NCBI RefSeq assembly: GCF_011682065.1
Contig: NZ_VUYU01000021.1
Span: forward strand, 1-64,000
Source: Massilia rubra
GTDB taxonomy: Bacteria > Pseudomonadota > Gammaproteobacteria > Burkholderiales > Burkholderiaceae_D
Direction of reading: 5' to 3'
Length of the DNA: 64,000 nucleotides
The position numbers and the translations under genes are program-made. Numbering within the stretch: position 1 is the first letter of the stretch; each line of letters begins with the position of its first letter. Below the pieces are notes generated by a model. That model was not told the DNA's origin, ran no database searches, and was given only the letters and a program-made list of their open reading frames with translations. Positions 23,012 through 50,119 of the stretch are shown here, one piece after another.

Positions 23012-23020
23012 GCTCGATCG

Positions 23021-23466: not shown

Positions 23467-23480
23467 GTGGTGCAGGGTAG

Positions 23481-26546: not shown

Positions 26547-27314
26547 TCACTGCACGGTTGAAAACAACACTCGCTTGCAGCAGATTTCCGAAATCCTGGC
26601 TAACAGCATTGGCCGTTCCTTGGTCAGGAAGAAATGGCCGCCCGGCAGAATATGCGTTGAGCAAGGACCGTCCGTTTCTTCTGCCCATGCCTCAAGTGTT
26701 GGCAAGGTGATGCTCGTATCCTGGGCGCCACCGAAGACCGTGATGGCGCACGATAGTTTTGGACGCGGACGATATTGATAGTGGTCGCACAGGGACAGGT
26801 CGGCGCGCAGGATCGGCATGACCAGCTTCCACAGGCTCGGATTTTCCGACAACTTCGCGTCCTGATTCATTTCCTCGACATGCGCCAGCAAATCCGGTTC
26901 GGACAAGCGCGACACAGCCGGTCCATGAGGATGTTTCGGCCCCTGATGGGCCCCGACAAACAGGCAAGCCGGAATCGCTTCGCCGCGTGAGCGCAATTCG
27001 TGAGCAAGTTCGAAGGCGATCAGGGAGCCGAGGCTGTGGCCATAAAACGCAAAGGGCATATCGAACATCGGCCGAAGCGCGTCAGCCAGCACCGGTACCA
27101 GCTCCTCGACACGGTGGAACAACGGTTCGGAATAGCGCGATTCACGGCCCGGAAGCTGGACCGCGCACACTTCAATTTCCGGCGGAAGCCCGGCCGACCA
27201 GCTGCGATACGCCGAAGCGCTGCCTCCAGCGAAAGGGAAGCAGAACAGACGAAGCCTTGCGGCTGCGCGTGCTTCATAAGCGCTCAACCAGGGTCCGTGC
27301 TTCAATCGCGCCAT
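26547..27314 (-). CDS. type II thioesterase
   Basis: 255 residues from the ATG at 27314. An alpha/beta hydrolase of the type II thioesterase class: RLRLFCFPFAGGSASAYRSW at the start, the nucleophile elbow GHSLG, a later Asp in FGGAQDTSI, and the catalytic His in PGGHFFL. Such enzymes clear mis-primed carrier proteins of NRPS/PKS lines and sometimes release product. With no thioesterase in the NRPS itself, a release role is possible. Follows the free carrier protein gene. Confidence 0.88.
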   Translation of the reverse strand: MARLKHGPWLSAYEARAAARLRLFCFPFAGGSASAYRSWSAGLPPEIEVCAVQLPGRESRYSEPLFHRVEELVPVLADALRPMFDMPFAFYGHSLGSLIAFELAHELRSRGEAIPACLFVGAHQGPKHPHGPAVSRLSEPDLLAHVEEMNQDAKLSENPSLWKLVMPILRADLSLCDHYQYRPRPKLSCAITVFGGAQDTSITLPTLEAWAEETDGPCSTHILPGGHFFLTKERPMLLARISEICCKRVLFSTVQ

Positions 27315-27411
27315 GAGCGATTCCAGTCCTTGCGCTGCCGGTGGGGACGATGCACCGTCCGGCACGTTGAAACGAATGCGTACGATGCCGCGCGTGTCGT
27401 CGCATGGACTG

Positions 27412-27687
27412 TCATTGATCCTGGCCCAGGCTGTTTTTCTCGGGCGCGCTCGCCGCACTTGGCGTCAAGGTCTCGAGATAGGCGAGCAGGTCGCCGATTC
27501 TTTCAAAACTGGTGGGATTGAGTTTTTCGTCGTCGAATTCAACGCCCAGTGCATGTTCAAGCTGGACAATGAGCTGGATGAACCTCAGTGAATCGAAATC
27601 GAGATCGACGAATCGATCGTCGAGCGAAAAACTCGAAATATACGGCGCCGTCTTGCCGATACAGCGTAACAGTACGGTTTCATTCAC
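27412..27687 (-). CDS. free-standing acyl/peptidyl carrier protein
   Basis: 91 residues with a GTG start at 27687 and GGGAGG 6 bases upstream. The carrier motif is DLDFDSLRFIQLIVQLE, with the Ser of DSL as the phosphopantetheine site. The four-helix size is normal and it ends with a Ser/Ala tail. Lacking the GGxS of NRPS PCPs, it is closer to acyl carrier proteins. It may carry the chain handled by LuxE/LuxC or an extender unit for the radical-SAM enzymes (inference). Confidence 0.85.
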   Translation of the reverse strand: MNETVLLRCIGKTAPYISSFSLDDRFVDLDFDSLRFIQLIVQLEHALGVEFDDEKLNPTSFERIGDLLAYLETLTPSAASAPEKNSLGQDQ

Positions 27688-28404: not shown

Positions 28405-29688
28405 TCATGCCGTGGGCTGCTCGCATTTGATCGACAACACGGGCACGGATTCGGCCGCCTCATTAATACAATCCTCAATTTCGCGCAGGTGTAGCGTTCC
28501 GTGCATAGTAAGGGAAATTGTGTGCGTGTCCACGCAGATCAATCCCAGCTTGTCGAGCAGCGCTAGCTTGTCGCCAAAGGCTTGCTCGACGGTGATTCCG
28601 AATTGCTCGCGAAATTGTGCGGTCAGAAACGATTTGACGCGCAGGCGATACAGGAATTCGAACTGCATGCGCTCCCTGTCGGTCATGACAAACTGCTCGA
28701 CCGCCGTGGGCTCCCCGCGCTCCACCCTGTCGATGTAGGAGCGGATGTTCCGGTCGTTAAAGCGAATGACACCGTCAACGTGACTCATCGCTGACATGCC
28801 GAATCCGATCCAATTGCGTGCCTGCATTTGCCAGAGGCCATACTGGTGCCGGCAGTCGGGGCGCAAGGCATAGTGAAACGCCGTGTAGCGTTCGTAGCCG
28901 AGATCGGCCAGAACGTCCACGCCACAGACCAGCTGCTCGTATTGCGCCGCGAGACGGGGCAATTCGATGAGCCCATTACGAACCCGTGTCTTGAGCGTCG
29001 TCTGGTCATAGACCCATAAGGGATAGAACGCGAAATGGTCGGCCCCGCACCGCACCGCCGTTTCGATATCGCGCCTGGTGCTGTCGGGCGTGCTGGCGGG
29101 CAGGCCCAGGATCAAGTCAATGCCCACCGAACCGATCCGGGACGCGACGGCACGCTCGATGGCCTCCTTTGCGAGGATGCCATGATTGCGTCCGACAGCG
29201 TCGAGGCATTCGGCCTGGAATGACTGTACGCCGATGTTCAGCTTGACGTTGGGAACACGCTCGATCACGGCAATCCGATCGGCGGTGATGGTCGTCGGAA
29301 AGCCTTCAATAATGACTTCTTCCAACTCCGTGCAATCGAATTGCGCAAAGACGAAATCGAGCAATGCGTCCAGATTCTCCGCGCTGAGGGCGGTGGGGGT
29401 GCCGCCGCCAAACTGAATCAGCCTGATCTTCGGCGCGTGCTCGCATGCGTCGAGGAAGGCGCGCATTTCCTTGTACAGGGATTGGAGATAGTCTGTGACG
29501 AGTTGTTCCGTGACCTGCCGGTCTACCACGACGGCGAAGGCGCAAAAATGGCATCGTTTTTCACAGAAAGGTATGTGGACATACAGGGCGATGGGTTCGA
29601 GCCCGATCGGACGCGCCGCGCCGACCGGCAATCCTTTCGAGGTGACGGGGTGGAAATGCACCCCCAGGCTCTTGTTGTTGTTGTTCAT
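28405..29688 (-). CDS. HemN/HemW-like radical SAM enzyme
   Basis: 427 residues. PIALYVHIPFCEKRCHFCAF holds the CxxxCxxC cluster motif (starting near residue 38), followed by IRLIQFGGGTPTAL (the GGE-equivalent) and VKLNIGVQSF, all as in coproporphyrinogen oxidase-like proteins. HemN relatives in secondary metabolism act as class C methyltransferases or cyclopropanases using two SAM molecules (NosN; C10P of CC-1065). Its place in an NRPS operon argues against heme synthesis. The exact reaction is unknown. Confidence 0.85.
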   Translation of the reverse strand: MNNNNKSLGVHFHPVTSKGLPVGAARPIGLEPIALYVHIPFCEKRCHFCAFAVVVDRQVTEQLVTDYLQSLYKEMRAFLDACEHAPKIRLIQFGGGTPTALSAENLDALLDFVFAQFDCTELEEVIIEGFPTTITADRIAVIERVPNVKLNIGVQSFQAECLDAVGRNHGILAKEAIERAVASRIGSVGIDLILGLPASTPDSTRRDIETAVRCGADHFAFYPLWVYDQTTLKTRVRNGLIELPRLAAQYEQLVCGVDVLADLGYERYTAFHYALRPDCRHQYGLWQMQARNWIGFGMSAMSHVDGVIRFNDRNIRSYIDRVERGEPTAVEQFVMTDRERMQFEFLYRLRVKSFLTAQFREQFGITVEQAFGDKLALLDKLGLICVDTHTISLTMHGTLHLREIEDCINEAAESVPVLSIKCEQPTA

Positions 29689-29742
29689 TCCGGAACCGTC
29701 CTTTCCGCCGCCACCGCTGCCCGGTGTATCTGAGAATGTCGC

Positions 29743-31794
29743 CTACAAATCCACGTTGGAAATCTGGCGATGCACGCCGGGGCGCTCTACTGCCAGAGGC
29801 AATACAAACATCGGTTTTTCCTGAACCTGGAGGTTCTCGCGCTGACTTGGTAACCATCTGGCGTCGGTGGCGTCGCACACCAGGCTCAGAATGCGACCGC
29901 GCTCCCCGAAGATCAAGCGGCGCTCGTCGAGCAGCGCGATTTCTCGCCTGATCTCTTCCTCATCTGTGAGAAGGGCCGCATGCAGCTCGGCGACGCTCAT
30001 CGGGCGCGCGAGCAGTTTGAGCATGTTCTGTCCCAGTGCCGAGAGCTCGTGTTCAACGGCCGTACCATCGCGCGAGTCATAGATGGCGCGTCCATTGTCG
30101 CTTGGCCTCAGTTCAGGGCGCAGCAGTCCGTCACGGACAAACCAGCGACGGCGCCACAGATCGACCACGCCTTCGATCTTGCGCTGCCAGCGGGCGACGT
30201 TAAACAGATAGCCGTTGGTGAATTCCTGGTCGGCCCAGAAATAGGCGAATTCCTCCATCTCTTCTTCTGTAAAGGGATAGAGCATGGTGTAGAAATCGAG
30301 CGGGCGCAGTTTCAGGCCATAAGCGCCAGGATCTTTCTGATAGGGGCTGTGGCGGTCGATGCGGACCGGAAACGTCGCGACCGGTGCGGGAAGATGCACA
30401 AGCGCGGGGACAATCCGGATGTATTCCGCATAGACCGACTCGTCCTCTTTCGGAAATCCGGTCAGAAGATTCCAGTGGACTTCGATGCCGTGGCCGGCAA
30501 TTCGCTTGAGGAAATTGATATTCTGGAACGCCGTGCTGCCTTTCCTCATCAGCTTGAGCACCGAGGTCGACAGGGACTCCAGGCCCGGCTGGATTTTGGT
30601 CACGCCCGCTTTCGCCAGTTGCGCCATTTGCGCCGGGTCGTCGATGACCCGGGTCTCGTAGAAGATGCTGGCGCCTTGCGGCGTTTGCACGAAGGGGAAA
30701 ACATGCTCGTAGTAGGAGGGCTCCAGGATATTGTCGACCGCAACGAATTGTCGGACCTGTGGATATTTTTCGAACAGTTCCTTGAACTGCGCGATGGCGT
30801 TATCGGGCGACATGGAGCGGAACTGCATCGTTGCGCCGTTGATGCCGCAGAAAGTGCAGTGGGCGCGCTCGCCCCACCAGCAGCCCCTGGACGTTTCAAA
30901 GAACAGCTCCGGCTCGATAGCGGCGCCGAAACGGCCAGCGCTGGCCAGGAAGTCATCATAATCGAGTGCGATCCGGTCGTTGATATCAGCCTCATTGCCA
31001 AGCCGGTCGTGGTTCTCCGGGAAGTTCGCTTGCATCCCTTCGCGCGAGTGCACGCCGGCGATGCGCCAGGGTGGCTCGCCGGCGTTGCTGATCAGACGTT
31101 CGACGAAATCCGGAAAGGCCCGCAACGCCGGTCCCGCGAAGGTGTAGTCGATCGCGTCGACCCGCTTGGCCAGAACCCGGCCGACCCCGGGCTCGCAGCT
31201 CGCGCCCCCCATGACCGTGGTGACGCCGGGACTGCGCAGCTTCAGGCGACGGGCCATGGCGATGGACGCCGTGGTCTGGTCGAACATGGAGGTAAAACCA
31301 ACAAGCCGGGCAGTGGAAAGCTCGTAGCGATCGATCAGCTCGTCCATGAAATCGCCCAGCCTGGAGCGAAGTTCGATCAATTGCATGAGAAGGCTCGGAC
31401 CAAGGCAGCAAGGGACGGTGGTTGCCACGGCCGGATTGCTGTTGGGGGTCGACGCACAGCCGTCGAGCTTGTTGCGAAGTCCGTCCGCGCAGCGGCAAGC
31501 GAGCGCCGGCATGTAGCGGGCGATGTAATGCTCGGACGTATCCGGCGAATCGGGAAACGCGAGATCGCGAAACATCCAGTCGGTCAGTCCCGTGACGGTG
31601 GTCCGGCTGTCGTCACTGAGATAGCGGTACAGGTTCAGACCGAAGAACTCGGCGAAATCATGGTTCAGATAATGAATTCGCGTCTGTACTTCTGTGGAAA
31701 AATCGCGATCGAGCACCGCTTTGAGCTGCGTCAGTCCGAGCGATGGCGTATGGACGGCGCCGAATGGCATACAGATAAGCGCAATGGGAAACAT
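29743..31794 (-). CDS. B12-binding radical SAM enzyme, RiPP-maturase type
   Basis: 683 residues from the ATG at 31794, with GGAGG at the end of the NRPS gene serving as ribosome site. An N-terminal B12-binding-like region (ALICMPFGAVHTPSLGLTQL; TTVMGGASCEPGVG) precedes a radical SAM core with SRGCWWGERAHCTFCGI, a CX7CX2C cluster shape typical of the rSAM_ocin_1 / RiPP maturation radical SAM protein 1 family. Then comes a C-terminal alpha/beta region. Such enzymes normally act on ribosomal peptides; here it is encoded directly after an NRPS. It could methylate an unactivated carbon (inference). Confidence 0.8.
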   Translation of the reverse strand: MFPIALICMPFGAVHTPSLGLTQLKAVLDRDFSTEVQTRIHYLNHDFAEFFGLNLYRYLSDDSRTTVTGLTDWMFRDLAFPDSPDTSEHYIARYMPALACRCADGLRNKLDGCASTPNSNPAVATTVPCCLGPSLLMQLIELRSRLGDFMDELIDRYELSTARLVGFTSMFDQTTASIAMARRLKLRSPGVTTVMGGASCEPGVGRVLAKRVDAIDYTFAGPALRAFPDFVERLISNAGEPPWRIAGVHSREGMQANFPENHDRLGNEADINDRIALDYDDFLASAGRFGAAIEPELFFETSRGCWWGERAHCTFCGINGATMQFRSMSPDNAIAQFKELFEKYPQVRQFVAVDNILEPSYYEHVFPFVQTPQGASIFYETRVIDDPAQMAQLAKAGVTKIQPGLESLSTSVLKLMRKGSTAFQNINFLKRIAGHGIEVHWNLLTGFPKEDESVYAEYIRIVPALVHLPAPVATFPVRIDRHSPYQKDPGAYGLKLRPLDFYTMLYPFTEEEMEEFAYFWADQEFTNGYLFNVARWQRKIEGVVDLWRRRWFVRDGLLRPELRPSDNGRAIYDSRDGTAVEHELSALGQNMLKLLARPMSVAELHAALLTDEEEIRREIALLDERRLIFGERGRILSLVCDATDARWLPSQRENLQVQEKPMFVLPLAVERPGVHRQISNVDL

Positions 31795-31797
31795 CAC

Positions 31798-34700
31798 TCA
31801 GACCTCCAGTAAACGGCCGATGGCATCGGCATATGCGGGATGAAGTGCGCCAATGCGGCCTAGCCTGGCCTGCACGGCATGCATTTTTTCGGCGGAGTAG
31901 GTCCCGGATTGACGCAGCTTGCTCAGGACGGCGAGCAGCACGGAGAGATGGGAAGTGATTTCCGTCAATGGACTGGCAAGCGTGGCGTCGGCCAGGATCA
32001 GGTCGAGCTGACAGGCCTCCAGCTTCTTGGCGAGCAAGACTTCGCCAATGGTGAACATGAACCGTTCCGCATGCTCGGACCAGGACGCCTCACTGGCCGA
32101 TGCGAACTGGAAGTCGTCGTGGAGCAGGGCAAAGGCTGCCGTTTCCTCCTCGCGCAATGGGTGGGCGAGCCGGAGCGTGTCAAGCAGGACCTGGCGCGTC
32201 AGGGCGCGCTCCTGCGCGACGAGGTCGGCGCCGTGTTGGCGTGAAACGAACAGGGCGCTGTCATCATCCATGCCGCGCGCGTTGAAGACTTTCTGATAGC
32301 TCTCGTATGCGGCTGCCATCTCCACGAAGCCGATCTTCGTGCTGCGATACAGTACGTTTCGCCCCGGTTGGTTATCGATGGTGTCAAACATGCCCTGTTG
32401 CGTGTCGTATCCGGTGACAAGGACGGTGTGGTCGCCATGCCTGGCCTGGTACAAGTCCCCATGTTGCTTGACATGAAAGCTGTCGAGCTTGACGACGCCG
32501 AGTTCGCCGCGCGCCAGCGCGCTCTTGAGCTGTTCGCAGATGGCGCTCGTCGCGTTGCTGCGGCGCACAGTCAGCCCCATGTCGGCGAGCACGTCATAGA
32601 ATGCCTGGCTTTCGATATAGTCGACGGCGACACGAAGCCCATGCGTGCGGTGCGCATTGCGACGCACAATGCCGATCGACGCTGCCATTGGCCGGGTCAG
32701 GTCGCCGCCGAGGTAGCGGGTCGCCGTCAGGACCGCCTGATAGGTGCAGTCCCGAAAGAAGACATCCGAAAACGGCGCCACATCGAGGCTGACACGGTCG
32801 GGCGCGGGCGGGGTGCAGGTCGCCACCGCATCGACTATTTCGGCGAAGGCAAGCTTGAAAGTTTGCGCCAGAAATTGAAGTCGGGCGCTCACGCCAGCCG
32901 CCGCGTGGGCGCGGAACACGACCGTCGTCGAACCATCCTCGACTCCGCTGTCGATGTCGATGCCGATGCATCCAGGTGGCAACTGGACATCATCTGTTGC
33001 TGAAAAACCGGCGGCAGGCACGGCAGCGCCACGCGAAAAATGGACCAGCGCGCTGCATTCCAGCGCGGCGGCGAGCGCGTCATTATTCACGACGGTATCC
33101 CACGCCAGCAGGTTTGCTTCGGCGAGGGCGATCCCGGCCCTGACGCGCGCACGATTGTCGGCGACATTGTGGACGTCATCGATGCCGATGACAGCCGGGC
33201 CGACGCTCCGTTCGCCGGCCCCGCCTGGGGGGCTGCGAAGAAGGGCAATGCGGATACCAGCGCCTGCGGAGGACATCTTCAGGCCGACACACAGCGCGGT
33301 CAGGAGGAGTTCATCGCCGACTGTTGTGGCGTCGGCCGGGGCCAGTTCGTTCCATGCAAGGTCGACGCTCACGCGCGACAAGGCTGGCGATACGGGGGCC
33401 ATGGACTCCGCTGGCGGCAGCAATGCCGCCGCATGCGCCGCGCGCACCGCGTTCCAGTACGAATTCGGCTGAGCGTCATCCTGGCGCCGCAGGCGCGCTG
33501 TGACGAGCTCGGCGATATCGCGCAGCGCCGGATGTTCGAAGAGATCGAGCAATTCGATCGGCAAGCCCTGCTTCTCGAGCAGCTTGACGACGAGGTTGGC
33601 GCCAATCGAATCGCCTCCCAGCGTGAAAAAGCTGTCCTCGGGGCCGATGTCATCGAGATGGATGCCGATGATGTCGCCCCATGTCTTCGCCATCAGTTTC
33701 TCAAGTGAATTCGTCTCACTGTCGTCCACTGCCGGCGCCGGTTCGGGGACGGCGGCCGACATGGCGAGCAGCCGTGCTTGATCGACCTTGCCGTTCGGCG
33801 TCAGCGGCATCTTGTCAAGCTGAAGGAGTCGGGAAGGAACCATGTAGTCCGGGAGACGCTTGTCGAGATAGTCGCGCATGAGCCTGAGATCCTCCTGGAT
33901 GTCGGATGTGAAGAAGCCCATGAGCTGAGTGCGCCCGTCGCGCGATGCCGCCAGCACAGCGCTCTCACGGATGGTTGAATAGCTTGACATCGCCGCTTCG
34001 ACTTCGGAAGACTCGACCCGGTAGCCGCGAATCTTGAGCTGCTTGTCGGCGCGGCCGAGATAGTCGATCTGGCCGTCGGGGAGCCACCGGACCAGATCGC
34101 CCGAACGGTACAGGATGCGGCCAGCCTGGAACGGATCGTCGACGAAGCGTTGCCGCGTCAGGTCCGGGCTGCCAAGATACCCGTTCCCCACCCCGAGTCC
34201 GCCGATATACAGTTCGCCCACCACGCCGGCCGGGCACAGGCCCCGCTCATCATCGAGAATGTACACATAGGTACCGGGCACCGGGCGGCCTATGCTACGG
34301 CTGCGGTCGAGAATGTCGAGACGCGACAGCATGTGGAAGGTCGAGTAGACAGTCGTTTCGGTGATGCCGTAGCCATTCACAATGGCCGGCATGTCATCGC
34401 GCCAGCTCAGGAAATTCTCGGGCTTGATCGCCTCGCCGCCAAGAATAATGTAACGTAGCGCCGTTGGCCGCTCGGCTTGCAACATGGTATCGGCGAGAAG
34501 ATAGAAGGCCGATGGCGGCTGGCACAATAAGGTCACGCGGTTTTTCTGGATGAGATCGAGCAGGCCGTGGCTGTCGGCGGCGAGCTCGCGCGGAACAATC
34601 ACCAGGTGCGCGCCGCTCAGGAGGGCGCCGAACATTTCCCATACGGAGACGTCGAAACACACGCTGTGAAATAGGGTCCAGACATCGTTGTGGTCCAGGC

Positions 34701-37700
34701 CAAACAGGCTCGTTGCACGGCGTACCAGGGTGACGATATTTCTCTGGGCGACCATGACCCCCTTGGGGACACCGGTGGTGCCGGACGTATAGAGCACATA
34801 GGCATTGCTTTGCGGGCCAGGATAGGATCCCGGATTGGTACAGGGATAGTCGGACAGGTCGCCGCGCGGATCGACCAGCGTGCCATTGAAACCGAGTGCG
34901 CCGATGTCCTGGTCCGTGATCAGTATCTTCGCGCCGCTATCGGCGAGCATGGCGCCAGTGCGCGTGGCGGGATAATAAGGGTCAAGCGGCAGATGCGCGG
35001 CCCGGGCTTTTTGGACCGCAAGTATAGCGATGACCATGTGCGTCGAACGCGAACAGAACACGCCCACCGTGTCGTTTTCCAGGACGCCCAGTTCGATCAG
35101 CTTGTGCGCGAGCCGATTACTTCGCGCATTGAGCTCGGCATAGCTCAATACCTGCGCGCCATCACTGAGCGCAGTCCTGGCGGGATGCTTGCGGACCTGC
35201 TGCTCGAAGCACAATGCAAGCGATCCTTCGTCAAACGCGTCAGTACACCCGGGCACGCGTCCCCAGGAAAGAATCTTGTCCCGTTCCGCGTCGCCCATGG
35301 AACACAGCGACAACACCGACGCTGCCGGAGACCGGACCGCGTCCGCCAGTAGCGTCATAAAGTTGTCGACCAGGCGCAGGATGGTGGTTTCCTCAAAGCG
35401 CCGCGTTGGATATTCGAATGCGAAACTGCCTTCCCCGTCATCGAGGTTCAGTTCGAGCGAGAGGTCGAATTTCGAGGTGCCGGTATGCAGCGGCCGGTGA
35501 CTTGCTTGAATGCCGTCGAGGGTGATGCTGGTCACCGCGTTGTCGACCATATGCAGCAGGACTGAAAAGAGCGGATTCTCGGCGTAGGCACGTTCGATGC
35601 CAAGCGCCTTGATCAGATGCCCGAATTCGACCTGTCTTCTTCCCAAGCCTTCGAGGACATGGTTTTTGACCGTGTCGAGGTACGCGAGAAAGCCCGCATC
35701 GGTCCGGATATCGAGGCGGAATGGCACCGTGTTGAGAAAAAGCCCGACGCACGCTTCATCGTGCGCTCCGGTGCGCATCGACACCGGCGCGCCAATCACC
35801 AGCTTTGTCTGGCGCGTGAACTTGTGGAGAAGCAAGCCGAATACCGCCATGAAGAAAGTGAATTCCGTTACGTCCGCCGAACGGCACAGCGTACGGATCG
35901 CGCGCACCAGTCCTGCCGCAAAGGCGCCGCGCACGACCCGGCCTGAATTCGATCGTTGTGGCGTGTCCGGGTGGTCGAAGGGGATGCGCAGTGGCTCGGC
36001 CGCACTGTCGCTGAGGTAACGGGCGGCGGCGGCGAGCGCGCCATGGTAGCTCTCGGCAGCCTGCTCCCGGCGCTGTGCTGCGGCAAAGTCCGCGTACGTC
36101 GCCTGCGGAGCTGGTGGCAGGCGTCCGCCTGCGTAGGCGCTTGCAAATTCTCGGAGCACGATCCCGAGCGCCACTTCGTCAATGACGATGTGATGAAAAT
36201 CGATCAGCAGCATCCGGTGCGTCTGCCCTTCGGAGAACAGCACCATACGAACCAAGGGCCCCGTTTGCAAATTGAACGGGACGACTGCCGCGCAGGCAGC
36301 CGCTTCCAGGCTCGATCCCGCTGTCAGCGGGCGTTCGGTGAAATCGACGCTGGCCTTGTCATCGACCCGCTGTACCCAGCGGTCTTCTTTTGCATGGAAG
36401 GTGGCGCGCAGGGCGGCGTGGCGAGCGACGACGGTTTCCATGGCGCTGAGCAAGCGGTCGATGTCGAGATTCGCGCCGACCATGAAAAGGACCGGCAGAT
36501 TGTAGGAAAGAGGGTGTTCAGAAGCAAGCGCGAGCATGCGTTCCTGGGCTGGCGACAGCATCATCTCACTGGGGTGAGCAGGAACCTCATGGCTCGCCTG
36601 CGCCACGCGGCTAAGGCGATCCTGGCGCGCTATCACGCTGTGCAGGCGGCGTATGGTATTTGCCTCGTAGATTTCGTTGAGGCCAAGTGCGACGCCCATG
36701 GTTTCCTGAATGCGCGCCAGCAGCCGCACCGCGCTCAAGGAATGGCCGCCTCGTGCGAAAAAGCTCTCGTCTTGACCGATGTGCTCGGTTTCCAGGATGT
36801 CCTTCCAAATCGCGGTCAGATCGCGTGTCAGCGCGTCGTCGGGCATGCCGGGGTTCGCCTTGCTGTCGGGGCCTTGCCCCAGCAAATGCAAGGCGTCGCG
36901 GTCCAGCTTGCCAGCGGCATTGAGCGGAAGCGCCGCCACCGGAACGACGCGGACGGGTATCAGATTGGGCGGCAATTTGTCGCGCAAGGCCGAGGCGAGG
37001 GTGTCGGCCGAGACCGGAGAAAAGCTCACGATGAAGGCCGTGATGACTTCCTTGCCGGCCGGGCCGTTCGCAAGGATTGCCGCTTGCCTGATGTGCTCGC
37101 ATGTAAGGACCGCCGCCCGGATCTCGTCGGGGTCGACCCGGACGCCGTGCACCTTGAGGTAAGCCTCGCTGCGGCCCTGGTATTCCAGCTGTCCATCCGG
37201 AAGCCAGCAGCCGTAATCGCCCGTGCGGTAGAGCCGCTCGCCGTCATGTTCATGAAAGCCAAGGTCCGCCGTGCCGGCATCGCCACGCGCCAGGCCCGGC
37301 CCGCCCAGGTGGATTTCCCCGCTCGCGCCAATCGGCACTGGCCGCAGGCGGCGGTCCAGAATGAGGACCTTGACATTCGATATTGGCCTGCCGATCACGC
37401 GCACGGTTTCCGCAGTCAGCTTGGGATGGCAGGTCGACACGACCGCGTTCTCGGTGGGGCCGTATTCATTGCTCAGGCGGACATGCGGCAGCAGCGATGC
37501 GCTGCGCACGATCAGCGCGGCGTCAGCCGCTTCGCCAGCCAGCGTGACGGTATCGAGTGAATCGAGGCGAACACCTGCGACATGGTCGAGCAGCGCCGCA
37601 TGAATCATGGGGGTACAAATGCAATGCGTTACGCCATGATGCGAGATGGAATCGACCATCTCGTCGGGAGCGCGCAGCGCTTTGTTGTCCATCAGGATAA

Positions 37701-39102
37701 CGGTTGAGGCGGAGCAAAGAGACGCGAAAACATTCAACACAAAGCCATCGAATTCGTAGCCAAACAATGGCAGTACCCGGGACGACGATGCAAGTTGGTA
37801 GGCGCGCTGCTTCCAGGCGATGGCGTTCATGATGCTGTGGTGCTTGATCGCCACCGGTTTCGGGGTTCCCGAGGTGCCGGAGGTAAAGATGACGTAGGCG
37901 CGATCTTGAACGGGGAAGATGCTGTGTAGCGCAGCGTCTTCGGCAGAGAGCAGGGATGCCAGTGACACCATGCGGCACCCGGGTGGCGCGATCGCTTCGC
38001 AGTCATCCGAGACAAGCAGGTCGGCGCCGACGGCGTCGAGCATCTTGCGCAGTCGGGTGACCGGTTCGCCAACGCCAATCGGGCAAAAGGCGGCGCCGGC
38101 CATCATGATCGCCAGCTCGACGACCACGGCATCGATGCCACTTGCCAACTGCAGCGCCACCGTCTTTCCGGGACCAATCCCCATTCCGGCGAGGCACGCA
38201 GCGGCTTTGCGCGCCTGGCTTTCAAGATCGGCATAGCTGAGCTGGCGTTCGCGGTAGATGAGCGCGCAGTTCGCGGGCGTTTGCAAGGCCTGGGCCGATA
38301 CCATGGCGTCGAGCCGCAGAGGGGGAATGTGCGCGATCGGACCAAGCGAGAACGCTGCGATGCGCGCTTTTTCAACATCGGACAGGTAGTCGATATCATC
38401 GATGGCGAGCGTGTAATCAGCCGTCGCCGCGACCACGAATTGCGTGAAATTCGACGACAATTCGCTCACCAGGTCGGGCCGGAAGCGGCTGGCGTCGAAG
38501 CGGATGGACCAGGAAACCTGTGATGCCGATCGATCGAACCAGAACGCCAGCGGGCTCCTGAAACGCGATTCTTCCCTCTTGTGGATGGCGGTCAAGGCAT
38601 ACATTGGCGTGTCGGAGAGGATTTTGTCCGCTGTTTCCGGACCGTGCACCTCGGTCAAGGACGCGCCCTGGTTGGAATAGCCATCGACGATCGTCCGCCG
38701 CAACATGAGGATGGCCGAACGCATGTCCGTCCCGCTCGCGACAACGCCGGTGAAACAGACAGTATGGGCAGGCGCTTGGGCGTCGTTCGCACTGTAAGGG
38801 GGAGAAAGGAACGCTGTATTTTCCTCTCCCGTCACCCTGGCCAGGTAGGCCTTCAATAGCGCAACGAGCATGATATACAGCGATAAATCGGGCCCTTTGC
38901 AGACGCGCAGGATGCTTGCGGAGCACGCGTCGGGAAGTGCTCCATCGCAAGTTGTCCATTGTGCGCCGGGTGGCATGGGCGCGCGCCAGCGCAGCGAGCC
39001 AAGCAGGGGGTGCTGGCCGGCAGGGGCCTCACCAAGGCTTCGCCAATAGGCGATATGGCGGGCGTCGGGGGCTGTCCCGGTCTCGTCGTCAATTTTCAAC
39101 AT
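31798..39102 (-). CDS. two-module NRPS with C-terminal papain/C39-like domain
   Basis: 2434 residues from the ATG at 39102, which overlaps the end of the upstream radical-SAM gene by 14 bases. Domains in order: half condensation domain without an HHxxxDG motif (1-250); A1 (about 265-735; FTSGTSGTPK, FDGFVLNVF, NEYGPTE, YRTGD, AAGK); PCP1 (GGHS, Ser788); C (about 845-1275; HHIVIDE at 970-976 instead of HHxxxDG); A2 (about 1290-1785; YTSGTTGVPKG, FDVSVWEMF, NGYGITE); PCP2 (GGDS, Ser1832); a C-domain-half-like region (1880-2100); then a domain with Cys2119 (FFRDCTYQAV) and His2225 (RHGDHTVLVTGYD) plus Asp2240/2243, resembling BtrH_N/peptidase C39 acyltransferases, with a helical tail. No TE or reductase. 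The Asp that binds the amino group is present in both A domains, so alpha-amino acids are expected. Release may be acyl transfer by the Cys domain or by the type II thioesterase. Confidence 0.9.
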   Translation of the reverse strand: MLKIDDETGTAPDARHIAYWRSLGEAPAGQHPLLGSLRWRAPMPPGAQWTTCDGALPDACSASILRVCKGPDLSLYIMLVALLKAYLARVTGEENTAFLSPPYSANDAQAPAHTVCFTGVVASGTDMRSAILMLRRTIVDGYSNQGASLTEVHGPETADKILSDTPMYALTAIHKREESRFRSPLAFWFDRSASQVSWSIRFDASRFRPDLVSELSSNFTQFVVAATADYTLAIDDIDYLSDVEKARIAAFSLGPIAHIPPLRLDAMVSAQALQTPANCALIYRERQLSYADLESQARKAAACLAGMGIGPGKTVALQLASGIDAVVVELAIMMAGAAFCPIGVGEPVTRLRKMLDAVGADLLVSDDCEAIAPPGCRMVSLASLLSAEDAALHSIFPVQDRAYVIFTSGTSGTPKPVAIKHHSIMNAIAWKQRAYQLASSSRVLPLFGYEFDGFVLNVFASLCSASTVILMDNKALRAPDEMVDSISHHGVTHCICTPMIHAALLDHVAGVRLDSLDTVTLAGEAADAALIVRSASLLPHVRLSNEYGPTENAVVSTCHPKLTAETVRVIGRPISNVKVLILDRRLRPVPIGASGEIHLGGPGLARGDAGTADLGFHEHDGERLYRTGDYGCWLPDGQLEYQGRSEAYLKVHGVRVDPDEIRAAVLTCEHIRQAAILANGPAGKEVITAFIVSFSPVSADTLASALRDKLPPNLIPVRVVPVAALPLNAAGKLDRDALHLLGQGPDSKANPGMPDDALTRDLTAIWKDILETEHIGQDESFFARGGHSLSAVRLLARIQETMGVALGLNEIYEANTIRRLHSVIARQDRLSRVAQASHEVPAHPSEMMLSPAQERMLALASEHPLSYNLPVLFMVGANLDIDRLLSAMETVVARHAALRATFHAKEDRWVQRVDDKASVDFTERPLTAGSSLEAAACAAVVPFNLQTGPLVRMVLFSEGQTHRMLLIDFHHIVIDEVALGIVLREFASAYAGGRLPPAPQATYADFAAAQRREQAAESYHGALAAAARYLSDSAAEPLRIPFDHPDTPQRSNSGRVVRGAFAAGLVRAIRTLCRSADVTEFTFFMAVFGLLLHKFTRQTKLVIGAPVSMRTGAHDEACVGLFLNTVPFRLDIRTDAGFLAYLDTVKNHVLEGLGRRQVEFGHLIKALGIERAYAENPLFSVLLHMVDNAVTSITLDGIQASHRPLHTGTSKFDLSLELNLDDGEGSFAFEYPTRRFEETTILRLVDNFMTLLADAVRSPAASVLSLCSMGDAERDKILSWGRVPGCTDAFDEGSLALCFEQQVRKHPARTALSDGAQVLSYAELNARSNRLAHKLIELGVLENDTVGVFCSRSTHMVIAILAVQKARAAHLPLDPYYPATRTGAMLADSGAKILITDQDIGALGFNGTLVDPRGDLSDYPCTNPGSYPGPQSNAYVLYTSGTTGVPKGVMVAQRNIVTLVRRATSLFGLDHNDVWTLFHSVCFDVSVWEMFGALLSGAHLVIVPRELAADSHGLLDLIQKNRVTLLCQPPSAFYLLADTMLQAERPTALRYIILGGEAIKPENFLSWRDDMPAIVNGYGITETTVYSTFHMLSRLDILDRSRSIGRPVPGTYVYILDDERGLCPAGVVGELYIGGLGVGNGYLGSPDLTRQRFVDDPFQAGRILYRSGDLVRWLPDGQIDYLGRADKQLKIRGYRVESSEVEAAMSSYSTIRESAVLAASRDGRTQLMGFFTSDIQEDLRLMRDYLDKRLPDYMVPSRLLQLDKMPLTPNGKVDQARLLAMSAAVPEPAPAVDDSETNSLEKLMAKTWGDIIGIHLDDIGPEDSFFTLGGDSIGANLVVKLLEKQGLPIELLDLFEHPALRDIAELVTARLRRQDDAQPNSYWNAVRAAHAAALLPPAESMAPVSPALSRVSVDLAWNELAPADATTVGDELLLTALCVGLKMSSAGAGIRIALLRSPPGGAGERSVGPAVIGIDDVHNVADNRARVRAGIALAEANLLAWDTVVNNDALAAALECSALVHFSRGAAVPAAGFSATDDVQLPPGCIGIDIDSGVEDGSTTVVFRAHAAAGVSARLQFLAQTFKLAFAEIVDAVATCTPPAPDRVSLDVAPFSDVFFRDCTYQAVLTATRYLGGDLTRPMAASIGIVRRNAHRTHGLRVAVDYIESQAFYDVLADMGLTVRRSNATSAICEQLKSALARGELGVVKLDSFHVKQHGDLYQARHGDHTVLVTGYDTQQGMFDTIDNQPGRNVLYRSTKIGFVEMAAAYESYQKVFNARGMDDDSALFVSRQHGADLVAQERALTRQVLLDTLRLAHPLREEETAAFALLHDDFQFASASEASWSEHAERFMFTIGEVLLAKKLEACQLDLILADATLASPLTEITSHLSVLLAVLSKLRQSGTYSAEKMHAVQARLGRIGALHPAYADAIGRLLEV

Positions 39103-40714
39103 GATCGTCGAAACCAAACATTGCATCCGCCAGCAAACGGGGATCCGCGTACGCCATGCCGCTTGACGCGCCCGGCAACGCCACGTCATCCTGTACGCGG
39201 CGATTGAAGTCGCCGACAATCTTTTTGATGTCCTTGAGTTCCCACCCTTGACTCAACAGGCAGAACAGGCTTGGAAAGTCGAAGTCGTTCTGCGGCAGCC
39301 AGGTCGAGGCGAGAACGTCATTGTGGAGCCGGTCAACCCAGTCGGCCGCCTTTTTTGCGTTCATCGTCCGGTGCGACCACTCGAACTGGGAATTTTTGAG
39401 ATCGTACTTCGCCGCATCCCGGTGAATGGGCGTCGTCATGTCGTAGTACCAAAGCTGTGCCCGGAAAAAATCCGGCTTGGCGGTCTCGATGAAGCGCATT
39501 GTCTCTTTGACGGTGTCATCCGTCTCGCCGGGAAATCCGACGATGAACGACGCGTAGGTCAGGATGCCGGCATCGCGTAAGTGAGCGATTCCCGTCAGAT
39601 ATTGTTCTGCGGTGACGCGTTTGTTCATGTTCAGCAGAACGGGATTGCTGCCAGACTCGAGGCCGAGAAAGACACCTTCGCAACCGGCTTCCTTCATCAG
39701 CGCGGTCATCCCGGAGGTCGCATACTGGCAACGGAAATTGCAGTTCCATTTGAAGGAGTAGTGGCGCTCCTTGATTCCTTGTAGAATTTCTTCGAATCGG
39801 CTCGGCGGTACGTTGAACGTGTCGTCGATGAAGGTGACGCTGTTGATGCCGCCGAGCGCCTCGATGGCGTCGAGCTCGCGCCAGACATCGGCGGGTTGCA
39901 GGTATTTGTAGGCGCCGGCGTGTTGCGGAAAGCTGCAGAACGAGCAGGCAAAAGGACAGGATCGCGCCGTGCGCGACATGACCATGTAGCGTTGCTTGCC
40001 GTCGGCCGGGGGAGCGAAGAGCGACCAGTCGACCAGGTTGTCTTCCAGCGGATTGTTTTCCTGGATAAGCGGCGTTGAAACATAGCTCTCGCCCTTGCGA
40101 AAGACAAGATTGGGGATGCTGTCGAAATCGGCCGCGCCGCGCAGCGCCCGCAGCACCCGGACCAGGGTTGATTCGCCCTGGCTGCTGACGATATAGACAT
40201 TGGCGCCAATTTGCGCGAGCAGGTACCGCAAGGAACTGGCGGACAGGATCTTGTGCTGGGTATCGACGAAGGGACCACCGACGACGATACAGACGTCCGG
40301 ATTGACCGAGCGCACGAACTGCACGACTTCGAGCAGCGGGAGCGGCGAGACATAGTACGTTGTCGTGATCGCGACCGAGGCCACGCGGCCGCTGCGCAGG
40401 AGGGATGCGAGTTCTGCTTTGCCTTCCTGAAACATGTTGATGTACGCACTGGAGAATCCGCGTCGTTGCAGGAACGTTGCGAGATAGGTGATCGTCGCAC
40501 TGAGAATATTGTCGTAACCGATGTCGGGACGGCCGGCTGGCTGCCTTCGATTGACATAGTCGCGGCAGCTGACAATCCCGGCCCCGTCCTCGTAGTAGCT
40601 CCAGCGCAGGTCCCGATAGGCGCCCGAGCTCTTTCCCATGGCTGCAACTGAAGCGACATAGTCGCCGAAGCCCATCTGGTTGTTGCCGATGACGAGGCAA
40701 TCGATCGGGCTCAT
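39089..40714 (-). CDS. PhpK-like B12-dependent radical SAM methyltransferase
   Basis: 541 residues. The opening MSPIDCLVIGNNQMGFGDYV with SGAYRDLRWSYYE matches my memory of PhpK-family (phosphinothricin P-methyltransferase) radical SAM proteins. A B12-binding-like region (CIVVGGPFVDTQH) precedes the radical SAM core with SCPFACSFCSF (CxxxCxxC) and FIDDTFNVP. The substrate need not be a phosphinate; many relatives occur in NRPS clusters without phosphonate genes, and none are seen here. Its start overlaps the upstream stop by 4 bases (ATGA), so it is tightly coupled. Confidence 0.8.
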   Translation of the reverse strand: MSPIDCLVIGNNQMGFGDYVASVAAMGKSSGAYRDLRWSYYEDGAGIVSCRDYVNRRQPAGRPDIGYDNILSATITYLATFLQRRGFSSAYINMFQEGKAELASLLRSGRVASVAITTTYYVSPLPLLEVVQFVRSVNPDVCIVVGGPFVDTQHKILSASSLRYLLAQIGANVYIVSSQGESTLVRVLRALRGAADFDSIPNLVFRKGESYVSTPLIQENNPLEDNLVDWSLFAPPADGKQRYMVMSRTARSCPFACSFCSFPQHAGAYKYLQPADVWRELDAIEALGGINSVTFIDDTFNVPPSRFEEILQGIKERHYSFKWNCNFRCQYATSGMTALMKEAGCEGVFLGLESGSNPVLLNMNKRVTAEQYLTGIAHLRDAGILTYASFIVGFPGETDDTVKETMRFIETAKPDFFRAQLWYYDMTTPIHRDAAKYDLKNSQFEWSHRTMNAKKAADWVDRLHNDVLASTWLPQNDFDFPSLFCLLSQGWELKDIKKIVGDFNRRVQDDVALPGASSGMAYADPRLLADAMFGFDDHVEN

Positions 40715-42063
40715 GGCATGTGCTCCGCGCTGAAATCGAAAGCGGCATCGCGCGCCCAGTGCGCCATGCGGACCGTGTCGACGATCTCGCCAACGGTGCT
40801 GGCGCCATGCCCGGCCATGAGGCCAGCGATCGTCTCGCAGGTCCGGCGATCGTCTTCCTGGCTGAAGGTCCTGCCATCCTGATCGAAATGCACCGTTAGT
40901 GCGATGACCGCCTCGCCGATCTCCACGTCGAGATAGGTGTCGAAGCTCGCTGCCTGCGCATAGTCGATGTTGGTGATGGCGAACGGCAGGGCTGCACTGT
41001 GCGGCGTGGCAACTTCAGACTTGTCGATGCTGAAATTGACCACGCTGTGCATGTCATGATGCGAGAGCCCCGCGCTGGCCAGCATGTCGCCCACTGACAG
41101 GAAGGACCGGCTGCTCGCTTCCAGCACATGCTTTTGCAGCTGGGGCAGCAGGGCCGCCAGTGGGGTAGTCTCGCTGATGACAACCGGAACGGTATTCGAG
41201 CAAACGCCGGCCACAGTGTGAATGCCCTTCAGTGGCAGGCTGCGTCCGAATACGGCGCACCCCAGCAGGCAGGCGCCGGTACCCTGGCGTGCAAGGGCGA
41301 ACAAACCCCACATGGCGAGCACGGCGATGTTGAGCGTGACCCGCTGTTCCCTGCGAACCTGATCGAGATGCGCGCGCGCCTGCGCCGACAGCGCGATGCG
41401 AATGGAGGTGCGCCCGCCACGCGCGTCCAGTCCCGGCACTGTCCTGGCCTTCGCCCTTGGCGCCGATGCCAGGTAGCCGGACCAGAACCGGTTCACGGCG
41501 GTCGCGTCCTGTGCGGATATGAAGCGTACATAATCGGAATAGGGCGTCGCCGGCTGCGCGATGGCGCGGCCCTCCTGGATGGCGCGATAAATGGCGCAAA
41601 AATGTTGCTGTAAAAGGTGCAGGGTCCATGAATCCGCGAGCGCGTGATGATAGGTCCAGGAAAAGACATGGTCTTGCGGAGCAAGCCGATACAGTGCGCA
41701 GCGGGACACATGTTGCGATGGATCGAGCGGGGCGTGTGCATCGGCCGCGATCTTGCGCCGCGCCGTTTCGCGTGGCTCACGTCGATCGCTAAGGTCATGG
41801 AACGGCAGCGCTGGCACACATGAGGGACGAATTTCCGCCGCCAGTCGCCAGTTGTCGCGCACATAAAAGGTGTGCAAAATCTCATGCATGCGTACCAGCT
41901 GGCGCAAGGTCTCTTCAAAGCGTGCGCGATCAAGCTGGCCGACGATATCGCACACCATGTGGTCGACATAGACGCCGTCGTCGCAATAGAAATCATGGAA
42001 CAGAAGGCCTTCCTCGATCGGCGATACGGCCCGCCTGAGCCCGTCGCCGGGCGCCGTACTCAC
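40711..42063 (-). CDS. free-standing NRPS condensation domain
   Basis: 450 residues, one complete condensation fold. Opening AVSPIEEGLLFHDFYCDDG, catalytic WTYHHALADSW (HHxxxDG with the last Gly replaced by Ser), and a C-terminal lobe with VAGVCSNTVPVVI (in place of VGxFVNT-like). The GTG start at 42063 overlaps the aminotransferase stop (GTGA). As a separate protein it may condense an amine or the free carrier protein's cargo with the NRPS chain, or supply the function missing from the half-C at the start of the NRPS (inference). Confidence 0.88.
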   Translation of the reverse strand: MSTAPGDGLRRAVSPIEEGLLFHDFYCDDGVYVDHMVCDIVGQLDRARFEETLRQLVRMHEILHTFYVRDNWRLAAEIRPSCVPALPFHDLSDRREPRETARRKIAADAHAPLDPSQHVSRCALYRLAPQDHVFSWTYHHALADSWTLHLLQQHFCAIYRAIQEGRAIAQPATPYSDYVRFISAQDATAVNRFWSGYLASAPRAKARTVPGLDARGGRTSIRIALSAQARAHLDQVRREQRVTLNIAVLAMWGLFALARQGTGACLLGCAVFGRSLPLKGIHTVAGVCSNTVPVVISETTPLAALLPQLQKHVLEASSRSFLSVGDMLASAGLSHHDMHSVVNFSIDKSEVATPHSAALPFAITNIDYAQAASFDTYLDVEIGEAVIALTVHFDQDGRTFSQEDDRRTCETIAGLMAGHGASTVGEIVDTVRMAHWARDAAFDFSAEHMP

Positions 42064-43439
42064 AGTGCGCCTCGCGTCGCGACGGGCGCCGAAGGCCGGG
42101 TCGTCGCCGGCTTGTTTTCCTGCATCTTCTCAACAAAAGGGGCGACGATCTTAAATACCTCGTCGATGCGCTCCTCGAACAGCGCAATGTCGCTGTCGTC
42201 AACCGCGATCGAGCCATACAAGCGGTTCATGTTCGACACCAGGATCCCGCACTCGGCCATGGCTTCGCTGGTCAGCTTCACGGCGTATTGGGCGATCATG
42301 GCCGATGAGGCACCCAGCTCGGCGCGCGGGCGAAAGTGGAAGACACCGGCCGCGTCCAGGCCTTGTATCTCGAACGTCAGGCCGTACTGCGCCGCCACAT
42401 GCACAAAGATATGATGGATTTTCCGCATGTGCGTTGCCAGATGGGTATAGCAATCGCCGTTGTCTTCCGACAGGATGTCGAGCGTCGCCCTGACGGCGGC
42501 CATGCCCAGCGCGTAGCCGTTAAAGGTGCCGCCATGGACGACCTTGCGGGCAGTGTAGAGATTCATGATCTCGCGGCGACCGGCAATTGCCGAGACCGGC
42601 AGGGCGCCCCCCGCCATCGCCTTGCCCAGCGTGGTGAGATCGGGCATTACATCGACCAGCGCTTGGGCGCCCCCCAGGCCGACCCGGAAACCTGTAATCA
42701 CTTCGTCGAAGACGAGGACGATACCGTGCGCGTCGCAGAGCCGCCGCATGCCCTCGAGATACCCCGCCTGCGGCGCCACGCCGCCGCCGTTGATGCAGAT
42801 GGGCTCGGTCAGCACGGCGGCGATCTGGTCGCCATACGCACTCAGAACCCGCTCGAGCGTCGGCAGGTCATTCCACGGCAGCAGAAAGGCTTCCTGCGTG
42901 GCCCCGCTTGCCTTCCCGTCCGTGTCGGTGATGTCTCTGTCGAACGATTCTGCCAGGGGATAGTCGAGGTTGCCGACCCGTCCGCCGAGCAGGCTGTCCG
43001 CATTGCCATGATAATGCGTGAAGAAACGAATGAAACGGGACTTGCCTGTGTAGGCGCGCGCGAGGCGCAGCGCATTGAGGACCGCGTCCGTGCCCGAAAG
43101 GGAAAACCTGACCATCTCCGCGCTGGGGACAAAGGCGCAGATCATTTCCGCCGCTTCGGCCTCATTGGCGCCGAGGTTGACCGCGGCCGCGCCGTTCAGG
43201 ATGTCGGCCAGACGGGCGTTGTAACGACGGTCGTTGTGCCCGAGGATATTCGCCCCGAACTTCGAAAAGAAATCCAGATACTCGTTGCCATCCATGTCCC
43301 GCAGTCGGGCGCCATGTCCACCGACGAAGTGAATTTGCTTCGATTCCCACGGCATCCGAAAACTATAGTGCGCGCCGCCGGGAACCACTTGTTTTAGGCG
43401 GTCATTATAGGACTTCGATCTGGCGGTGTTAAATGTCAT
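42060..43439 (-). CDS. class-III PLP aminotransferase, glutamate-1-semialdehyde aminomutase-like
   Basis: 459 residues. Signatures: VPGGAHYSFRMPWESKQIHF at the start, DMDGNEYLDFFSKFG, the PLP phosphate segment FSLSGTDAVLNALRLARAYTG, VLVFDEVITGFRVGLGGAQ (Asp binding the pyridine N) and TTLGKAMAGG with the Schiff-base Lys. Close to HemL in form, but the setting (first enzyme of an NRPS operon, opposite LuxE/LuxC) suggests amination of an aldehyde or a 2,3-aminomutase-like step on a biosynthetic intermediate. It is preceded by a well-positioned 36-codon ORF that overlaps its start. Confidence 0.88.
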   Translation of the reverse strand: MTFNTARSKSYNDRLKQVVPGGAHYSFRMPWESKQIHFVGGHGARLRDMDGNEYLDFFSKFGANILGHNDRRYNARLADILNGAAAVNLGANEAEAAEMICAFVPSAEMVRFSLSGTDAVLNALRLARAYTGKSRFIRFFTHYHGNADSLLGGRVGNLDYPLAESFDRDITDTDGKASGATQEAFLLPWNDLPTLERVLSAYGDQIAAVLTEPICINGGGVAPQAGYLEGMRRLCDAHGIVLVFDEVITGFRVGLGGAQALVDVMPDLTTLGKAMAGGALPVSAIAGRREIMNLYTARKVVHGGTFNGYALGMAAVRATLDILSEDNGDCYTHLATHMRKIHHIFVHVAAQYGLTFEIQGLDAAGVFHFRPRAELGASSAMIAQYAVKLTSEAMAECGILVSNMNRLYGSIAVDDSDIALFEERIDEVFKIVAPFVEKMQENKPATTRPSAPVATRGAL

Positions 43440-43650: not shown

Positions 43651-43753
43651 CTGCTAAGAGACATAATCAGGTATACATGGCGATCTGCTTCATTTTTTGC
43701 CGCTCCAGCGCCAGTGTCCGGACGTGACCATGCAGGGGAAAGTTGAGGACGAG

Positions 43754-44875
43754 ATGTCGCAATCCACATTCGACAGTGCGCATGGCGAGAGCATGGCGGC
43801 GTCCCTGGCCAGCCTGTTTGCGATGCCGCCTTTTGCAGCGGACAAATCGTGGCGAAAACGCCACTTGGACATGATTGTGACGACGCTCACCCGGCACCAC
43901 TATGAGCAGTGCAGCGCCTTCAGGCATATTCTTGACGGCCTCGATATTGATCCGAACCAGACCCGCGCCGTCGCGGATCAACCCTTTCTGCCAGTGTCCC
44001 TGTTTAAGAAAATGATCTTGCGAAGCGTACCGATAGCGCAGGTCAGTCACCGGCTTATCTCATCCGGAACGGGCCGCTCGGGCCGATCGGAAATTTTCAT
44101 CGATCGCCCCACGTCGCTTCTGCAAATGCGCGCCCTGTCGCGGATTGTGCCGAGCGTGATTGGGGAGAAGTGCCTTCCACTGCTGGTCGTGGACGCGCCG
44201 ACCCCGGCATCGGATCCCGCCGGCTATGCCGCGCGGTCGATTGCGATCCAGGGCTTTTCACTGTTTGCGAGCGGGCGTCCCTGCTTTGCCCTGAACGACG
44301 ACATGACATTGAATATGCATGACATTTCGGCTTTCCTGGAACGTGCGGGCGGCAAGCCATTTCTCATGTTCGGGTTCACGCATGTCATATGGCGGTACTT
44401 TCTCGAAGCACTCGCGCTGACGCGCCCTCGCTTTGATTTCGCGCATGGCACCATGATTCATGGCGGCGGGTGGAAGCGGCTGGCGGAAAGCGGGGTCGAT
44501 GAACGACGCATGAAGGCGGTCGCAAAGGAGTTGCTCGACCTTTCGAAAATCCATAACTATTATGGGATGGTCGAACAACCAGGCTCGATTTACCTTCAGT
44601 GCGCGCATGGGTTCTTTCATTGCAGTAATTTTTCCGAGGTTTTTGTTCGGCGTGCCGATCTCAGCATTGCGCACGATGGCGAAGCGGGAATCCTGCAAAC
44701 AGTGTCAGTCTTGCCGAAGTCCTATCCCGGTCATAATTTGTTGACCGAAGACCTGGGCGTATTGCATGGAGAAGACGATTGTGCTTGCGGCAGGAAAGGA
44801 AAATATTTCAACATCTTGCGACGGCTGCCCGGGGTGCAGCCGAAGGGCTGCGGGGACGTTGCGACAAACCAATGA
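43754..44875 (+). CDS. LuxE-like acyl-protein synthetase
   Basis: 373 residues from the ATG at 43754 (GAGGA upstream; further in-frame ATG at 43730). LuxE-family pattern: QPFLPVSLFKKMILRSVP, then LISSGTGRSGRSEIFIDR (the AMP-binding Ser/Gly/Thr segment), LPLLVVDAP, IHNYYGMVEQPGSIYLQC, and a late CACGRKGKYF. The family activates a carboxylate with ATP and passes it to LuxC. Paired with the LuxC-like gene immediately downstream. Confidence 0.85.
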   Translation: MSQSTFDSAHGESMAASLASLFAMPPFAADKSWRKRHLDMIVTTLTRHHYEQCSAFRHILDGLDIDPNQTRAVADQPFLPVSLFKKMILRSVPIAQVSHRLISSGTGRSGRSEIFIDRPTSLLQMRALSRIVPSVIGEKCLPLLVVDAPTPASDPAGYAARSIAIQGFSLFASGRPCFALNDDMTLNMHDISAFLERAGGKPFLMFGFTHVIWRYFLEALALTRPRFDFAHGTMIHGGGWKRLAESGVDERRMKAVAKELLDLSKIHNYYGMVEQPGSIYLQCAHGFFHCSNFSEVFVRRADLSIAHDGEAGILQTVSVLPKSYPGHNLLTEDLGVLHGEDDCACGRKGKYFNILRRLPGVQPKGCGDVATNQ

Positions 44876-44924
44876 GAATGGCCGGACGGCGCTGTCGGGC
44901 AGCGCTGCGCATGAGCAGGCGACG

Positions 44925-48103: not shown

Positions 48104-48162
48104 GAGTCTGCGCGGGCAAGTGCGTTGTTTGGATGAGGGAACGTTTGATCAAAGGGGGTAAT

Positions 48163-49986: not shown

Positions 49987-50119
49987 AGGCAACTCCTTTT
50001 GCTTGCATGGGTACCGCAGGTACTCTAGACTCGTATTTGTCTCTTGACGAGAATGAGCCGATCATGACCGCTCAGGGCTCAAGATACTCCTCGTGGCGAT
50101 GGCGCGCCCTCGACCAGCA

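Follow-up and report, generated by a model that had tools for sequence, protein, structure and literature searches.

A BtrH_N-like domain at the C-terminus of a nonribosomal peptide synthetase as a possible chain-release device

Results

Domain layout of the NRPS

The window, that is, the whole stretch of 64,000 nucleotides of Massilia rubra DNA analyzed here, contains on its minus strand a nonribosomal peptide synthetase (NRPS) frame of 2473 open codons (39219..31798). The protein starts at the ATG at 39102 (residue 40 of the frame), in a 14-base overlap with the end of the upstream gene, stops at 31798, and comprises 2434 aa; residue numbers given below follow the open reading frame (ORF) and equal those of the preliminary description, counted along the 2434-aa protein, plus 39. 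The domains, all encoded on the minus strand, are arranged in the order of a half condensation domain (half-C; 38302..39102), a first adenylation domain (A1; 36886..38307, approximate limits), a first carrier domain (PCP1; 36628..36849, approximate limits), a condensation (C) domain with an HHIVIDE motif (35269..36567), a second adenylation domain (A2; 33787..35208), a second carrier domain (PCP2, residues 1845–1906 with the motif LGGDSI; 33502..33687), a linker of 233 residues (32803..33501), a BtrH_N-like (papain/C39-like) core (residues 2140–2330; 32230..32802), and a C-terminal tail (residues 2331–2473; 31801..32229).

A Pfam search at E ≤ 0.1 found two AMP-binding domains, one Condensation domain, two PP-binding stretches, BtrH_N, and AMP-binding_C in the NRPS, together with weak matches to LamB_YcsF and DUF1839, each below its own cut-off. 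Adenylation domain 1 is assigned by domain profile matches, adenylation domain 2 by PF00501 and PF13193, the C domain by PF00668, and both carrier domains by PF00550, which matches PCP1 in two stretches; PCP1 also aligns with the carrier region of linear gramicidin synthase A. The N-terminal segment contains the C-terminal lobe of a condensation domain, as identified by hhalign (E 1.4e-6, probability 90 %), and matches PF00668 at profile positions 385–455 with 24.1 bits, below the cut-off. The same search at E ≤ 0.1 gave no thioesterase (PF00975) or reductase domain in the NRPS, which, together with the PF14399 match described below, confirms the earlier proposal that the protein ends in a Cys-His domain and not in a thioesterase; no docking or reductase domain, the alternatives then considered, appeared in the Pfam search.

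Two other parts of that proposal were not borne out. A region resembling half of a condensation domain had been placed between PCP2 and the core, but the linker gave no PF00668 match at E ≤ 1, an hhalign probability of 0.2 % against eight C domains, and PDB matches of E 0.23 at best, and is without detectable relative. A condensation half before the BtrH_N-like domain is therefore rejected, the half-C sitting at the N-terminus of the NRPS instead, and no terminal condensation domain was found by PF00668 after PCP2. Likewise, DUF4872 (PF16169), a common yet not universal partner of BtrH_N that had been thought possible behind the core, is absent (no match at E ≤ 1); the tail matches no curated family and is predicted to be helical in an AlphaFold2 model of low confidence.

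Family identity and candidate catalytic residues of the terminal domain

The predicted assignment to the BtrH_N family (PF14399) proved correct by the Pfam score of the domain and of its core. The isolated 191-aa core scored 33.3 bits (E 6.6e-8), with residues 2158–2278 on profile positions 2–129, the last 567 aa including the linker scored 31.0 bits, and the NRPS domain in the genome search 34 bits, all passing the curated cut-off of 29.7 bits, whereas the full 2473-aa protein (28.2 bits, E 2.6e-6) remained below it. Similarities of the core to DUF1839 (17.6 bits) and to Peptidase_C39_2 (PF13529; 18.3 bits, E 0.0036, against a cut-off of 24 bits) were both below cut-off, and NCBIfam gave no match on the terminal domain. 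A profile built from 58 other BtrH_N ORFs scored 22.7 bits on the domain and 19.3 bits on the whole NRPS, against 8.8 bits for the best of 1000 shuffled domain sequences; the match spans residues 2213–2281, that is, the His half without the Cys, and is mildly circular in that the profile columns came from an alignment that had contained the NRPS domain. A profile of 13 BtrH_N proteins built without the NRPS domain gave E 0.16 (six-frame ORFs of 143 loci), and hhalign of the domain to those 13 proteins, with which it shares 13–20 % identity, gave E 4.4e-4 and a probability of 34 %. On account of these last profile and hhalign values, we judge the similarity to BtrH_N, as far as sequence comparison goes, to be real but remote.

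The predicted nucleophile, Cys2158 (codon 32746..32748), lies in FFRDCTYQAV, which begins at residue 2154, occupies PF14399 profile position 2, and follows the second carrier domain by 252 residues; position 2 is also Cys in the BtrH_N proteins of loci L025 and L075. The predicted base, His2264 (codon 32428..32430), lies in GDHTVLVTGYD, which begins at residue 2262, and the likely third residue of the triad is Asp2282 (codon 32374..32376); all three codons are on the minus strand. In an alignment of 14 rows (A1), the Cys is shared by 13 of the 13 other BtrH_N proteins, the His by 12 of 13, with Tyr in its place in the L003 row, and Asp2282 by 11 of 13; in a second alignment of nine rows (A5), the counts among the eight other proteins, rows with gaps left out, are 7/8, 5/7, and 7/7, respectively. 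The position of His2264 is given by hhalign and by the 58-ORF profile as well. The preliminary description had named two Asp residues, corresponding to Asp2279 and Asp2282; the latter holds a family position, whereas the former is matched in 0 of 13 rows of A1, and the counts, resting on remote BtrH_N sequences and not on NRPS-fused relatives, favor Asp2282 over Asp2279. When the core and the L075 protein were aligned as a pair, their Cys residues were not brought into register.

Papain-like folds have the Cys preceding a helix and the His beginning a strand. AlphaFold2 models predicted from the single sequence are unreliable, with a pLDDT of 38.7 for the C-terminal 481 aa and 38.4 for the 191-aa core, and a Foldseek search gave no match below E 0.57. 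The low-confidence core model places the Cys before a helix and the His at the start of a strand, an arrangement to which we give no weight.

Gene cluster around the NRPS

On the minus strand, a class III aminotransferase (42060..43439; PF00202, E 1.4e-50), a stand-alone condensation-domain protein (40711..42063; PF00668), a PhpK-like B12 radical SAM protein (39089..40714; TIGR04479, 585.2 bits against a cut-off of 600), the NRPS, whose start is overlapped by the PhpK-like gene, and a B12-binding radical SAM protein (29743..31797; TIGR03975, 492.7 bits against a cut-off of 281.85) form a run with successive overlaps of 4, 4, and 14 bases, the last two genes being adjacent. The run is followed by a HemW-like radical SAM protein (28405..29688, minus strand; TIGR00539, 185.9 bits, below cut-off), a small cupin-type ORF with weak NCBIfam matches only, and the overlapping minus-strand genes of a stand-alone carrier protein (27412..27687; PF00550, E 2.1e-9) and a stand-alone thioesterase (26547..27458; PF00975, E 6.7e-46). 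Divergent from this run, on the plus strand, are a LuxE-like acyl-protein synthetase (43697..44875; PF04443), a LuxC-like acyl reductase (44766..46226, start uncertain; PF05893), a stand-alone adenylation and carrier protein (46289..48103; PF00501 and PF00550), and a SAM methyltransferase (48073..48927; domain profile matches), with an aspartyl/asparaginyl beta-hydroxylase-like protein (48982..49992, minus strand; PF05118, E 9e-14) beyond. The carriers of the cluster are accordingly the two PCPs in cis, the protein at 27412–27687, and one domain within 46289–48103.

The two radical SAM proteins at 28405–31797, one of them above the RiPP-maturation cut-off of TIGR03975, lie inside the NRPS cluster. 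Type VI secretion genes flank the cluster at 18703–25867 and 52848–57724 (TssG, ClpV-like AAA; TagF, IcmF), and a DUF6708 protein is encoded at 24713–25867. Among 16 further genomes of the genus, four contained a match to the PhpK-like protein, with a top score of 99.9 bits (31 % identity); because matches were so few and distant, the cluster may be an insertion. The PhpK-like neighbor also raised the idea of a phosphinothricin-like (phosphonate) pathway, which is rejected for now since the genome has no PEP mutase above cut-off (best 115.2 bits against 319.55). In tblastn searches of plasmids, the PhpK-like and TIGR03975 proteins found only matches of less than 60 % identity, and no Rfam match was found within the 64-kb window.

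BtrH_N and PhpK-like proteins at other loci

The L075 cluster of a Lachnospiraceae MAG (L075:8485-20487) groups a BtrH_N protein (53.4 bits) with two free carriers and a PhpK-like radical SAM protein (39 % identity). It also encodes a squalene-cyclase-like protein and shows another, weak BtrH_N match of 18.9 bits (E 0.0018) as well as weak similarity to class II tRNA synthetases (27.3 bits, below cut-off); the cluster looks like an NRPS-independent carrier-based assembly. In L183, the BtrH_N protein (36.4 bits) has a carrier and a SPASM radical SAM protein as neighbors, and that of L025 (30.2 bits) is accompanied by ATP-grasp, class III aminotransferase, carbamoyltransferase, ketosynthase, and a C-A-PCP-TE NRPS, as well as a weak tRNA-synthetase match (27.6 bits, below cut-off). 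None of these three BtrH_N proteins is fused to an NRPS, and DUF4872 was not found in those of L025, L075, L182, and L183. A carrier pattern applied near twelve BtrH_N loci marked L183 and, doubtfully, L184; the pattern is insensitive, since it failed to pick up the L075 carriers found by Pfam. Judged by the look of their ORFs, L181 and L182 have no biosynthetic neighbors. Contig C63 of the NRPS-bearing genome itself (L023 and L024) has three further BtrH_N genes, all stand-alone and grouped in a stretch of about 16 kb; a HemW-like match and a weak match to radical SAM proteins lie close by.

The PhpK-like (TIGR04479) proteins of loci L064–L078 are matches of 36–45 % identity. NRPS-like sequence lies within 10 kb in 11 of the first 13 loci listed (all but L073 and L075), and the next two loci, L077 and L078, are without it. 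The P-methyltransferase label may be wrong for these proteins, which look like NRPS tailoring enzymes.

Rarity of the fusion

A count of how many NRPSs share this fusion, suggested in the preliminary description, was made on genome samples. Among 805 genomes, PF14399 had 75 distinct matches, 73 above cut-off, and a single one lies in a frame longer than 1000 aa, namely, the NRPS described here (frame of 2484 aa). The samples comprised the organism's own phylum (398 genomes; 21 matches in 17 genomes), the phyla of genomes G1136 (168 genomes; 22 matches in 20), G1144 (103 genomes; 22 matches in 21), and G1143 (129 genomes; 8 matches in 6), and ten individually chosen genomes (3 matches in 3), three of which, one with a match, also fall within the samples of the latter three phyla. 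Frame length serves here as a proxy for fusion; of the 74 other matches, 11 were run through Pfam, and no NRPS domain was found in these 11 proteins. The second-longest frame, of 989 aa in G1186, considered as another fusion, contains only BtrH_N and DUF4872 (Pfam, E ≤ 0.001). Among plasmid relatives of two other BtrH_N proteins, no NRPS lay under the match in the 40 listed of 50 and the 40 listed of 93.

Searches with the domain itself found the own genome alone among 392 genomes of the family, and no relative at E ≤ 1 among PLSDB plasmids; a scan of GTDB contigs for exact 8-residue patterns (reaching close relatives only) was likewise negative, as were the viral contigs scanned and a tblastn search at E ≤ 1e-4 in 80 loci including L064–L078. 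The best match outside the own genome among 369 genomes of the class (E 0.0042, 80 residues, in a 453-aa frame) was treated as chance, and the best PDB match by sequence had E 0.66. An NRPS-BtrH_N fusion is not described in the titles and abstract openings of the papers listed in searches of open-license literature. The fusion looks rare and is unique within the genomes sampled; it may occur in other phyla, which are covered at most by single genomes among the ten.

Discussion

The NRPS carries, directly after the linker that follows its last carrier domain, a BtrH_N family domain with Cys2158, His2264, and Asp2282 at the family positions. PMC10318531 describes BtrH as an acyl carrier protein:aminoglycoside acyltransferase and places BtrH_N close to C39 and C70; PMC2922099 names the BtrH family as one of the transacylase-like groups with the potential to release acyl chains from carriers. 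From this family membership and the place behind the last PCP we infer a papain/C39 fold, catalysis, an acyl-enzyme at Cys2158, and an amine acceptor. In the predicted reaction, Cys2158, aided by His2264 and Asp2282, would receive the dipeptidyl chain of PCP2 in thioester linkage, and the acyl chain would then be handed to an amine, the product leaving as an amide instead of a free acid. That a built-in acyltransferase moves the chain in this manner has, in our estimation, about an even chance of being right. In view of the family and the gene context, it is plausible that the domain is a chain-release device with an amine as acceptor of the peptide, and its route of release would differ from those of thioesterase, reductase, and terminal condensation domains.

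Consistent with such a role, no thioesterase or reductase is integrated in the NRPS, BtrH_N proteins without DUF4872 adjoin free carriers in L075 and L183 and occur in an NRPS/ketosynthase-type cluster in L025, and the cluster described here contains, by gene content, a gene set able to make an amine. We speculate that an acid might be activated and reduced by the LuxE- and LuxC-like proteins to an aldehyde, which the class III aminotransferase would transaminate; an equally speculative acceptor would be an amino acid on the stand-alone carrier protein. The complete route, in which the last domain releases the peptide as an amide with an amine made by the cluster through LuxE/LuxC and transamination, is possible but doubtful. 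On the other side, the cluster's own stand-alone thioesterase could perform release, which is the main ground for doubt about amide release, and the neighbors of the BtrH_N genes in L181 and L182 do not look biosynthetic.

The overlap of the stand-alone carrier and thioesterase genes bears on another assignment of roles, in which the domain serves the stand-alone carrier, moving its acyl group to an amine of the growing chain, and the thioesterase frees the peptide. Known BtrH uses a free carrier (PMC10318531), and the L075 and L183 relatives adjoin free carriers; fusion behind PCP2, where a release domain would be expected, nevertheless argues against this assignment, and we consider it somewhat unlikely. 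The same position would suit release by hydrolysis or by ring closure through an internal amine of the chain, the domain being a cysteine substitute for a thioesterase, and papain-fold Cys-His-Asp enzymes can hydrolyze or cyclize. The BtrH_N family, however, transfers to another amine, and the cluster already has a thioesterase, which makes ring closure or hydrolysis unlikely.

The remote similarity, the missing DUF4872 tail, and the failure of the searches to find a close relative would also be compatible with a domain that has lost catalysis and persists in a docking or structural role, release then falling to the stand-alone thioesterase; with Cys, His, and Asp2282 all on family positions, such a loss is quite unlikely. 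Finally, the weak Peptidase_C39_2 similarity and the TIGR03975 neighbor, whose family name refers to RiPP maturation, could point to a peptidase-like domain for peptide trimming that might act jointly with this neighbor, but the C39_2 score is below cut-off and the domain is fused to an NRPS, and this reading appears highly improbable.

The release step sets the end of a nonribosomal peptide as an acid, a ring, an aldehyde, or an amide. If amide release by the BtrH_N-like domain is true, a cysteine acyltransferase acting in cis would be a new release tool joining peptides to free amines, and such a release domain could be moved between assembly lines. The acyltransferase would be of a known kind; what is new is its fusion to an NRPS, the sole case in our samples, for which the function is predicted from sequence. 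It would also tie BtrH_N to amide formation on carriers outside the aminoglycosides, in keeping with L075 and L183, whose BtrH_N proteins lack DUF4872 and have free carriers and radical SAM proteins as neighbors.

The proposed role is worth comparing with those of other cysteine enzymes in assembly lines. The RifF-type amide synthase of the ansamycins, a Cys-His-Asp enzyme, terminates its chain by forming an amide. It differs from the domain described here in belonging to the arylamine N-acetyltransferase family, in being a separate protein, and in closing the ring of a polyketide. AdmF, the transglutaminase homologue of andrimid biosynthesis (Fortin 2007), is reportedly a condensation catalyst with a Cys of the papain class within an assembly line; it is of a different family and is a separate protein, not a release domain. 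Amide bond formation in the thiotemplated pathway to closthioamide has been ascribed to cysteine-protease proteins (PMC8868522), an activity like the one proposed here, in a pathway whose product does not come from an NRPS. Within the family itself, the comparison is with BtrH of butirosin biosynthesis and other PF14399 proteins, with which the domain shares a core with Cys, His, and Asp at the family positions and carriers nearby. It differs in its fusion to an NRPS, in the lack of DUF4872, and in its remote sequence, and its acyl chain would be supplied in cis by a peptidyl carrier domain.
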